From positions 1 to 26,236 of the IMG/VR virus record IMGVR_UViG_3300024999_000346: a stretch of DNA of 26,236 nt, one strand, 5' to 3'. Below are positions 2,661 to 6,623 of the stretch, one piece after another. A model generated the notes under the pieces. That model did not search any database. It had not been told where the DNA came from and saw only the letters and a program-made list of their open reading frames with translations. This DNA comes from a virus. The first letter of the stretch is position 1. Each line of letters begins with the position of its first letter. The position numbers and the translations under genes were made by a program.

Positions 2661-4709
2661 ATGAACATTTTTGATCGGGTGGTAACTGCAGTCGCTCCCG
2701 TCACAGCGCTTAAGCGAATGGCTGCGCGTCAAACAATGCAGATACTCAACTATGGCTATAGCGAGGGTGGAGCATCCGGTCAGAAAAAATCTATGCGTGG
2801 ATGGCGAGCCAACGCGACAAGCCCGAAGGATGACATCGATTCAAACCTTAATACTCTGTGCGCGAGATCTCGCGATCTTTACATGAATGCACCCCTTGCA
2901 AATGCGGCACTGAAAACAATTAAGACAAATGTTGTCGGCCCTGGCTTGAAGTTGAAGTGCCACATTGACGCAGAACGATTAGGGATATCTGAAGATCAAG
3001 CAAGTTCCATGGGGCAAGAAATAGAGCGAGAATTTTCACTATGGGCTGAAAGTAAACATTGTGACGCCTTGAAGATGAATGACTTTAATGATCTTCAAGG
3101 ACTAGCCTTCCTCGGAGCCATTATGAACGGTGATTCTTTCACTCTCTTCAAATATTCCAAACCAACACCTTGGATGCCTTATGGATTAAGGTTGCACGTC
3201 ATTGAGGGAGATCGAGTTTCAAGTCCTTACTCCTCAATCATGGTATCTGGAAACGTCGATGCAATAAACCCAATAACTAAAAACAGAATCATATCTGGAA
3301 TTGAATTAGATTCAGATGGAGCAGTGATTGCTTATCACGTTTCCAATCATTATGCAATCTCAACCGGACTAGATTCAAGCGTGCCAAGGGAATGGATGAG
3401 GATTGAGGCCTTCGGAAAAAATACTGGTCGCCCAAATGTTCTGCATTTAATGGAGACCGAACGGGCAGAGCAACGACGTGGCGTTCCAGTGCTCGCTCCA
3501 GTGATCGAAACATTGAAGCAGCTCACAAGATATACCGAAGCGGAGCTTATGGCCTCTGTTGTTGCAGGGATGTTTACGGTGTTTGTTAAGACTACGGGAC
3601 CGACAAGTGAAATGTCATTAGGGAGCATGGTTCCCGAGGAAGATCAGGTCGCACCATCTGACCCAACAGTTTATGAGATGGCAAATGCAGGGATCAACGT
3701 ATTGGGACCAGGTGAATCAATCGAGATCGCTAATCCCGGAAGACCAAACAGCCAGTTCGATGCCTTCATAACATCGCTGACTACTCAGATCGGTGCATCG
3801 CTTGAAATACCGCGTGAGTTATTGCTCAAAGCGTTTACTTCCAGCTATAGCGCAAGTCGAGCGGCGTTACTCGAGGCTTACAAGATGTTCAGAACTAGGC
3901 GAACGTGGGTTGCGAAAGAGTTTAATCAGCCAGTTTTTGAAGAGTGGATGGACGAAGCTGTGGGAAGTGGTCGCATTAAAGCACCGGGATATTTTAATGA
4001 CCCGGCTATTCGCAGGGCTTATCTCCAATCGGAGTGGACGGGCCTTGCTCCAGGTATGCTCAATCCAAGCGTGGAGGTTGCGGCAGCTGGTAAGCGGATC
4101 GAATTAGGTCTTTCCACCCGCGAGAAGGAGACCATTGAACTTACGGGTGGAGATTTTAGTCGCAACGTAAAACAACTTGCGCGTGAAAAAGCATTGATGA
4201 AGGAGTCTGGATTATTGACAGTTGTCAGTGGCGAAGGTGGTCGGGATCCTGTATCGTCACAGCAAAATATAAAAGCAGAATTATACTACAACAGGTTTAA
4301 GCCACTCAATGAAAAAAACAAAGATAAGCTTGACGAGGTTAAGAGGGTTATTAAAACCTTGTCTAAAGAGGAAAAGGCTGAACTTGGCCCACGTTATTTT
4401 TATGATGATGCGCAATATCGATATATCGTTGAAAAGGATGATAAGTCTGTTGGATTTATTGAAAATCGTGCAACCGGCAAGAAGGGGCATTTTAATATCG
4501 CGGTTGATCCCGATTACCGAGGACAGGGAATAGCCGATGATATGGTTGATCAGGCAATTAATGATGCCCCTAAAAATCTTCCAGACATCGAAAAAATATT
4601 ATGGGTGACCACTTCGGGAAATAAAGCATCAAGAGACTTGGCGGAGAAACATGGCTTTGAATTGACATCCGAAGACGATGACGAGGTTAAGTATACCTAC
4701 TGGCTTTAA
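2661..4709 (+). CDS. Portal protein (lambda gpB family) with C-terminal GNAT-like acetyltransferase domain
   Basis: 682 residues. Residues 1 to about 535 look like a complete lambda-family portal, the dodecameric DNA channel at the head vertex. The cues are NTLCARSRDLYMNAPLANAALKTI, then LQGLAFLGAIMNGDSF, then the SYSASRAALLEAYKMF segment conserved in portals. After a short linker (GEGGRDPVSSQQ) the last 140 or so residues form a separate domain. It has a GNAT-like motif A: a strand HFNIAV, then YRGQGIADDMVDQAI at about 619-633, the place where acetyl-CoA pyrophosphate binds. A motif-B-like NKASRDLAEKHGFEL follows. No stop codon or internal ribosome site separates the two parts. Portals of this family are often 500-550 residues, so the extra domain accounts for the excess length. 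The target of acetylation is unknown. Confidence 0.88.
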   Translation: MNIFDRVVTAVAPVTALKRMAARQTMQILNYGYSEGGASGQKKSMRGWRANATSPKDDIDSNLNTLCARSRDLYMNAPLANAALKTIKTNVVGPGLKLKCHIDAERLGISEDQASSMGQEIEREFSLWAESKHCDALKMNDFNDLQGLAFLGAIMNGDSFTLFKYSKPTPWMPYGLRLHVIEGDRVSSPYSSIMVSGNVDAINPITKNRIISGIELDSDGAVIAYHVSNHYAISTGLDSSVPREWMRIEAFGKNTGRPNVLHLMETERAEQRRGVPVLAPVIETLKQLTRYTEAELMASVVAGMFTVFVKTTGPTSEMSLGSMVPEEDQVAPSDPTVYEMANAGINVLGPGESIEIANPGRPNSQFDAFITSLTTQIGASLEIPRELLLKAFTSSYSASRAALLEAYKMFRTRRTWVAKEFNQPVFEEWMDEAVGSGRIKAPGYFNDPAIRRAYLQSEWTGLAPGMLNPSVEVAAAGKRIELGLSTREKETIELTGGDFSRNVKQLAREKALMKESGLLTVVSGEGGRDPVSSQQNIKAELYYNRFKPLNEKNKDKLDEVKRVIKTLSKEEKAELGPRYFYDDAQYRYIVEKDDKSVGFIENRATGKKGHFNIAVDPDYRGQGIADDMVDQAINDAPKNLPDIEKILWVTTSGNKASRDLAEKHGFELTSEDDDEVKYTYWL

Positions 4710-4746: not shown

Positions 4747-5937
4747 TTGGGGTTTTGGAACTTTGTTAACAATCCAGAAAACGATAATGAGGTAGAACTT
4801 CGCATCGAAGGCGACATTGTTTGCGGTGATGATGCATGGTTATACGAGTGGTTTGGGATTCCGGTTGCCTCAAAAAATAAATTTAGATCTGAATTGGCTA
4901 AACACAAGGGTAAGGATATTATCCTATGGGTTGATAGTGATGGCGGAGATGTGTTTGCGGCAACCGGAATGTATAACGCACTAATGGAACACAAAAAAGA
5001 TGGCGCAAAGGTAACTTCAAAGATTGATGGCAGGGCCATGAGCGCTGCGACCATCCCCCCCATGGCGGCAGACGAAAGATTGGTGAGCCCAGGTTCGCTC
5101 TGTATGGTACACAATCCGTTAACTGGTGTTCGTGGCTACGCCTCTGATCTAAGGAAAACGGCAGATGTACTTGACGAAGTTAAGGAAGCCATCATCAACG
5201 CCTATCAGCTCGGGACGGGTAGATCGAGAGAAGATATCTCACAAATGATGGATAACGAGACTTATATGAGCGCAAGAACAGCGATTACCGAAGGATTTGC
5301 AACTGGAATGCTATATACAGACAAGCAATCCGCGGAGTCTATCGAAAATACGTTCATGTTTAGCCGGCAACTATCCATCCAAAACAGTGTCACGGATTCG
5401 ATGAAACTATTTTTTGAACAGTATGGCAAGGGTCAAGCGGTACCGCCTATCGCTGTAGTCACGACTGAACCAAATGAAAAAGGGAGTGAGAACATAGTGG
5501 ATATTAAAGACATTAAAAACATCGACGAACTTAGACAGCATCTTCCAGAGCTGTGTAACCAATTAGAAGCGGCAGCTCAATCTACGGCGCAAGCCGCGCA
5601 GGTCACTGCTCAAATCACAGCACAAACCGCAGAGAGGGATCGAATTAAAGCTATCGATGAAATATCCGCGCTGATTGATCCTGCATTGGTGGCCAAAGCT
5701 AAATATGATGAGCCAATCACAGCAGAGGCGCTTGCCTTCCAAGCTTTCAAAGCAAACGCTGCCAATGGTGAAACTTATGTAGCAACACGGACTGCAGAGG
5801 TACAGGCCTCTGGGACTGCCGGCGTAGCCGGAGCTATAGGTCAAAGTCAAGACGAAATCGATGCCGCATTTGAGGCCGCAGTTATTAACCGAGTCGCAGC
5901 CTCGGCCAACCAAAAAAGAAAGGTGGAAGTTAACTAA
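4747..5937 (+). CDS. Head maturation protease (ClpP/S49-like) fused to scaffold
   Basis: 396 residues. The first 215 or so form a ClpP-fold serine protease that processes the prohead. WVDSDGGDVFAA is followed by GRAMSAAT with candidate nucleophile Ser99, then the candidate catalytic histidine His122 in CMVHNP, then ETYMSARTAITEGFATG. The remaining 180 residues are Ala/Gln/Glu-rich and helical, typical of a scaffold. This is the lambda C/Nu3 arrangement in one reading frame. The start is TTG at 4747 with AAAGGAGGTGAGAT before it. The stop overlaps the next start by one base (TAATG). Gene position between portal and decoration protein fits. Assignment of the third triad residue is not possible by eye. 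Confidence 0.88.
   Translation: MGFWNFVNNPENDNEVELRIEGDIVCGDDAWLYEWFGIPVASKNKFRSELAKHKGKDIILWVDSDGGDVFAATGMYNALMEHKKDGAKVTSKIDGRAMSAATIPPMAADERLVSPGSLCMVHNPLTGVRGYASDLRKTADVLDEVKEAIINAYQLGTGRSREDISQMMDNETYMSARTAITEGFATGMLYTDKQSAESIENTFMFSRQLSIQNSVTDSMKLFFEQYGKGQAVPPIAVVTTEPNEKGSENIVDIKDIKNIDELRQHLPELCNQLEAAAQSTAQAAQVTAQITAQTAERDRIKAIDEISALIDPALVAKAKYDEPITAEALAFQAFKANAANGETYVATRTAEVQASGTAGVAGAIGQSQDEIDAAFEAAVINRVAASANQKRKVEVN
5497..5937 (+). CDS. Nested scaffold protein (Nu3-like), internal in-frame start
   Basis: Inside the protease gene a GTG at 5497 is in frame and is preceded by AAGGGAGTGAG, about 10 bases away. Translation from here would give a free 146-residue scaffold beginning MDIKDIKNIDEL. 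The rest is a helical region with Ala/Gln/Thr repeats (STAQAAQVTAQITAQTAE) and a basic C-terminus (QKRKVEVN) that could contact the capsid protein. In lambda, Nu3 is made in just this way from within gene C. The ribosome site and frame are seen directly; that the start is used is inferred. Confidence 0.55.
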   Translation: MDIKDIKNIDELRQHLPELCNQLEAAAQSTAQAAQVTAQITAQTAERDRIKAIDEISALIDPALVAKAKYDEPITAEALAFQAFKANAANGETYVATRTAEVQASGTAGVAGAIGQSQDEIDAAFEAAVINRVAASANQKRKVEVN

Positions 5938-6623
5938 TGGCAAAACAACTTTACGAAGTCGATGCAACCCCGGCCGCGTTTGACAATCTTTTTGCCGATC
6001 TTGCCATTAACGTTTTAACTAAGGGGGTTACCCTTAAGGCTGCACAAGGTATTGTAAAACGCGGATCAGTCCTTGGCTTAATTACTCTGGCAGTCGGCAC
6101 CATCGTAGCTGGCGATAACACGGGTGATCCAACAATTGCTACAGCTACCTTGGCAGCAAATGCCCAAAAGGGAGCATATAAAGTTATTTGCAATAAGGCT
6201 CCAACTGCTGGTGGAGCAAATGATGCTATGTTCTCTGTATTTGCCCCCGACGGTTCTCGCTTGGCGGATGCCGTTCAGGATGTTGCGTATGCTGGCGGCC
6301 ACTTGGCCTTCAAAGTCGCAGTCGTAACGGCTGTTGATAGTGTAGTCGGAGATTCGTATACGATCAGCGTAATTGCCAGCTCAGGCTTAGCAGTTCTCGT
6401 TAATAAGGCTAATTTTGACGGTAGCAACTTAGCCGACTGCGTTTTGTCAGATGACGTTGACACAGGGGCTGTCGGTTCGACTACTGACATCACCTATACT
6501 GCGTACAGCGCGGGCCACTTCAACCGTGCGGCGCTTATCTTTGCTGCGACAAATACCGCAGCAGACCACGAAGATCGATTACGTGACGTTGGTATTGTCC
6601 TCAAAGACAATATCGCGTACTAA
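5937..6623 (+). CDS. Head decoration protein (lambda gpD-like)
   Basis: 228-residue Ala/Val/Thr-rich beta protein lying between protease/scaffold and major capsid protein, where lambda has gpD. Cues are LTKGVTLKAAQGIVKRGSVLGLIT early on and, at the end, DCVLSDDVDTGA followed by YTAYSAGHFNRAALIF and LRDVGIVLKDNI. That ending is characteristic of the gpD-like family that trims the capsid three-fold axes. It is longer than lambda gpD (about 110 residues). The extra middle part (about residues 75-130) could be an inserted domain displayed on the capsid surface. ATG start overlaps the previous stop. Confidence 0.82.
   Translation: MAKQLYEVDATPAAFDNLFADLAINVLTKGVTLKAAQGIVKRGSVLGLITLAVGTIVAGDNTGDPTIATATLAANAQKGAYKVICNKAPTAGGANDAMFSVFAPDGSRLADAVQDVAYAGGHLAFKVAVVTAVDSVVGDSYTISVIASSGLAVLVNKANFDGSNLADCVLSDDVDTGAVGSTTDITYTAYSAGHFNRAALIFAATNTAADHEDRLRDVGIVLKDNIAY

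Follow-up and report, generated by a model that had tools for sequence, protein, structure and literature searches.

A GNAT acetyltransferase domain at the C-terminus of phage portal proteins of two families

Portal-borne enzymes and the portal protein of the window

The portal is a ring at one vertex of the phage head. In phage lambda, the crown of the portal protein gpB (8k38) is formed by residues 453-511; the final 20 residues of the protein are unmodelled (PMC10721106). Portal and MuF proteins carrying PBECR, 2H, InPase, Nudix or ART domains have been described by Iyer, Aravind et al. (PMC5512222, PMC9503650). In the available portions of these papers, packaging and injection of the extra domains are deduced from domain architecture, and the available literature gave no experimental demonstration that such a portal-fused domain is delivered. 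In addition, the GNATs treated in these portions sit in polyvalent proteins or solo genes. Rac, a GNAT of phiKMV-like phages, is by its description the product of a separate gene outside the head proteins (PMC7552054). Neither a portal-GNAT protein nor one enzyme cassette repeated across two portal families was found in the available portions of the open-licence literature. Head proteins bearing effector domains, by contrast, are already known.

The DNA analysed here (the window) is a viral record 26,236 bases long, which comprises a module of head and contractile-tail genes. The gene order is terminase, gpW-like adaptor, portal-GNAT, ClpP-type head protease, decoration protein, major head protein, tail sheath and tape measure. 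The portal gene (2661-4709, + strand) is a single open frame of 682 aa with zero internal stops. The initial annotation had described one uninterrupted frame running from a lambda-type portal into a tail, and both the frame and the portal assignment hold. In the Pfam profile search, residues 42-414 matched Phage_portal_2 (PF05136; E 3.8e-95, 319.5 bits versus a cut-off of 32.9). Furthermore, the TIGR01539 portal_lambda model scored 211.8 bits over residues 42-519 (cut-off 172.7), which places the protein in the lambda portal family. In the alignment to solved structures, portal residue 518 pairs with gpB residue 505 of 533. Thus, the portal is complete before the tail, which begins where an ordinary portal ends. 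The portal part (residues 1-519; 2661..4217, +) aligns with gpB up to this point; however, little of gpB follows its crown, and an enzyme domain is absent. With an enzyme domain fused to a portal, the protein has the architecture of the head-packaged effector fusions of the portal/MuF type, and it shares with them an extra enzyme domain within a head or portal polypeptide.

The portal part is followed by a variable linker (residues 520-551; 4218..4313, +). Its length and sequence vary among the carriers, and the model has pLDDT <50 there (tail residues 2-21). The initial annotation had also reported no ribosome site before the tail. A scan of in-frame starts showed that this does not stand for the window itself, where an in-frame TTG at codon 519 (nt 4215) is preceded at 9 nt by AAGGAG (4200..4217, +), a possible internal start. 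No comparable start is common to the other seven fusions described below. The internal start might yield a free GNAT besides the fusion, with the free form as the working product. The AAGGAG and TTG of the window speak for this reading, but no such start is shared by the other seven fusions, and we consider the reading very improbable.

Features of the GNAT domain

The initial annotation had placed a GNAT-like domain on the portal C-terminus, and a profile match, a predicted fold and seven further fusions bear this out. The domain occupies residues about 552-682 (4314..4706, +). Searching the tail against GNAT profiles, as that annotation had suggested, gave Acetyltransf_1 (PF00583) over residues 579-666 with an E value of 7.4e-13, and this match is far past chance, because it scored 49.2 bits versus a cut-off of 20.7. 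The tail also scored above the curated cut-offs of PF13508, PF13302 and PF13673. The acetyl-CoA-binding-type loop YRGQGIA (residues 619-625; 4515..4535, +) and the following segment NKASRDLAEKHGF (residues 654-666; nt 4620-4658) were found where they had been annotated. In the eight sequences of the group, the Y, R, G, G and A of the loop are invariant (8/8). The RGQGIA of the window fits the pattern R/Q-x-x-G-x-G/A, whose R, G and A positions are likewise invariant (8/8).

The initial annotation had allowed for a structure prediction without a GNAT fold; the tail, modelled from eight aligned sequences, was predicted to have one. The mean pLDDT was 81.7 and the pTM 0.76, with the first ~20 residues uncertain, and residues 20-150 of the model (552-682 of the protein) matched solved GNATs with Z up to 16.5. 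The top structural match by VIA-align was the Sulfolobus protein acetyltransferase 3f8k (Z 16.5, rmsd 2.0, 121 residues), followed by PA4794, Naa10 and RimI. However, 3f8k is only 25% identical over the structural alignment and is a free enzyme with no portal fusion. The full-length fusion, modelled from a six-row alignment, reached a pLDDT of 36, too low for conclusions.

SpeG spermidine acetyltransferases ranked first both in sequence comparison and in Foldseek; of the solved structures, the SpeG entry 6vfn was the closest in sequence (E 7e-8). These matches would fit acetylation of polyamines, which neutralise packaged DNA, so that packaging or ejection might be tuned. However, the tail scored 25.5 bits against the SpeG equivalog NF011709, whose cut-off is 218; the tyrosine position of SpeG is Ala in the tail; and protein acetyltransferases rank above SpeG by VIA-align. 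We therefore consider a polyamine substrate improbable. The RimI S18 acetyltransferase equivalog TIGR01575 gave 31.4 bits, below its cut-off of 86.4. On the predicted model, the GNAT fold is clear and the substrate class is not.

Where GNATs usually have a general-acid tyrosine, 8/8 sequences have Ala; against SpeG, LAEKHGF stands opposite VYKKVGF. This tyrosine is used by many GNATs and many others do without it, so it is common and not required. This change might mean that the domain is catalytically dead and that its role at the portal is one of binding or shielding. However, the key positions of the acetyl-CoA loop do not vary, and GNATs without that tyrosine are numerous. From the alignment, the loss of the tyrosine does not prove inactivity, and a dead domain seems to us rather improbable.

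Distribution of the GNAT tail among portal proteins

One further record (L002) carries the same fusion and is identical to the window (100% over 8,944 nt). It was therefore not counted as independent, and from this identity the two probably belong to the same virus population. The GNAT domain was found in seven further loci at 53-84% identity. Six of them (L003, L006, L008, L009, L011 and L012) are viral contigs, and L014 is a Syntrophomonadaceae MAG. In all seven, the domain is in frame at the portal C-terminus. A chance frame or an assembly join was thus ruled out, given seven further loci with identical architecture. L006 and L009 have PF05136 portals like that of the window, and the portals of the other five (L003, L008, L011, L012 and L014) are of the HK97 type (PF04860).

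In the GNAT tree, lambda-type and HK97-type carriers are intermixed in a clade with support 100/99; within the tree, the pairing of L003 with L009 (91/93) is only suggestive. The closer pairs show higher amino-acid than nucleotide identity (87.5 versus 76.0%, and 90.2 versus 77.5%), and thus the protein appears to be under selection. It should be noted that synonymous sites were saturated in nearly all pairs, so that identities and dN were used instead of dN/dS. The G+C content of the tail is below that of its own portal in 8/8 fusions, slightly so in L008.

Empty sites with both flanks aligned were found in near relatives of four backgrounds (the window, L006, L008 and L003). For instance, L006 and L041 share ~82% identity as far as the end of the portal and 79% beyond it, and between these points there are 555 nt in L006 versus 69 in L041. 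The same pattern was seen in L008 versus L100 (481 versus 29 nt) and in the window versus L005 and L007. L003 versus L180 gave a similar empty site with weaker flanks. Portals 89-92% identical to that of the window end ~12-15 residues past the same point and have no tail. The initial annotation had left open that homologous portals might show the tail to be an ordinary crown or clip domain, and the survey of relatives went against this. In sets gathered by sequence patterns, which are not an unbiased census, the tail was missing in 79/80 lambda-type relatives (the sole carrier being the known L006 contig), was present only in L008 and L012 among 80 portals of their type, and only in L003 among nine portals of its type. 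An ordinary portal extension was ruled out, as the relatives mostly end 2-74 residues past the core and the tail occurs only in the known carriers.

Between the window and L003, the GNAT parts are 87.5% identical and the portal parts 21.8%. Because of this difference, the empty sites and the presence on two portal families, the tail appears to be a horizontally exchanged cassette. In addition, the DNA match of L003 and L009 to the window continues into the protease gene, so some exchanges may have carried the GNAT together with the protease. An HK97-type portal of the L008 group (L139) bears a different C-terminal tail of 91 residues, and the GNAT may therefore not be the sole addition at this site.

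No free-standing close relative of the portal GNAT was found in viral contigs, INPHARED phages, plasmids or bacterial genomes. The window tail as a query had no match among the INPHARED phages, where the family consensus gave weak general GNAT matches only, and the plasmids likewise gave weak general GNAT matches only. The bacterial species collection contained one member, L014, and 398 genomes of its phylum contained L014 and one weak match (G203, E 2e-11). PADLOC gave no relevant match. A match in a small protein of Luteibacter phage Pluto (H82; 36% over ~60 residues) was taken as chance.

A distant GNAT, 39% identical over ~70 residues and not fused to a portal, was found in the packaging module of another record (L194), ~1.2 kb after the terminase gene. 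Its N-terminus is a short motif, PF23847 (DUF7211), which also opens two neighbouring genes. These three genes downstream of the terminase (L194:2522-5537) have a near-identical starting motif (NELYHHGIKGQKWGVR...), with one of the three copies just under the curated cut-off. In gp6 of Streptomyces phage Bilo (L200:2269-3171), DUF7211 is joined to GNAT, twice in one protein, and in gp13 of Gordonia phage Petito (L201:2936-4498) it is joined to a 2H/RNA-ligase-like domain; both genes lie directly before the terminase gene. At a lenient limit, DUF7211-like matches occur in 153 phage records, mostly actinophages. No literature naming DUF7211 was found, and our guess is that it might be a sorting or head-loading tag.

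Possible roles of the portal-borne GNAT and neighbouring genes

With confidence somewhat short of an even chance, we favour the reading that the exchanged GNAT cassette is a virion-borne effector, possibly freed by a protease, which acts in the newly infected cell. By analogy with the published portal/MuF effector fusions, this head-borne role is the likeliest, and the distant GNAT beside the terminase gene of L194 also speaks for it. The cassette would have entered portal genes at their 3′ end with the reading frame kept. Each portal subunit would then have one GNAT beyond the crown, towards the interior of the capsid, and every head would be loaded. From portal stoichiometry, a ring would bear twelve GNAT copies. 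By analogy with lambda gpB, the tail is more likely inside the head than outside at the neck, because the gpB C-terminus follows its crown. With an enzyme fused to the portal, each particle would carry the same small dose, placed where the DNA leaves. Furthermore, the occurrence of one cassette on two portal families suggests that portal C-termini tolerate added enzymes and are used repeatedly for loading them.

A domain still attached to the portal would be left in the emptied head, so proteolytic release would be needed. The next gene (4747..5937, +) encodes a ClpP-type head maturation protease (PF00574, E 5.5e-24; phrog_94), which is a candidate to cut the linker. In 8/8 cases the gene after the fusion encodes a head maturation protease; five of these proteases are ClpP-type (PF00574) and three are S78-type (PF04586). 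Portal followed by protease is the usual gene order, so this adjacency is compatible with linker cleavage and is no evidence for it. The protease of the next gene, or another protease, would free the GNAT through the variable linker before ejection, and the freed GNAT would acetylate a target in the newly infected cell, more likely a protein than a small molecule. Release and injection are the weakest steps of this proposal. The portal itself is not ejected, and this counts against it, as does the Ala at the usual tyrosine position. The portal-GNAT offers a direct route to asking whether portal-fused domains truly get delivered.

The leading alternative, somewhat less likely, is that the GNAT stays on the portal and acts in the cell that produces the virions, where neither release nor injection would be needed. 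Its targets could be partners in head assembly (the scaffold, the capsid protein, the terminase or the portal itself); another candidate is a host protein approaching the portal, such as a defence protein sensing packaging components. Acetyl-CoA is at hand in the cell and absent from the free virion, which favours this reading, and the strict link to the portal in 8/8 fusions suggests that location could matter. For phage ARTs, PMC9503650 suggests as a possibility that they counter immunity aimed at the portal or terminase; in the literature on Avs4 and portal recognition, nothing directly applicable was found. However, the cassette occurs on two portal families with different head proteases, which makes a single conserved assembly substrate less likely, and close relatives manage without the tail.

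The virion-borne effector can also be put in a fuller form. A mobile GNAT would move between portal families, always at the portal C-terminus, and would be loaded into the head and freed by the phage's own head protease. As infection begins, it would acetylate a conserved target, either of the host or of a defence system, through a mechanism that does without the usual tyrosine. In this full form we regard it as unlikely.

The region around the portal and protease genes varies among close relatives of the window. The gap between the two genes is 37 nt in the window, whereas in the tailless close relatives L004 (7593-7959) and L007 (4408-5034) it contains a small extra frame starting with MELEKMSELEFVVKTAIKTKQ. 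The decoration protein also differs in length, with 130 aa in L004 (9167-9559), 228 aa in the window (5937-6623) and 328 aa in L007 (6224-7210), and this spread seems to have arisen through added repeated segments.
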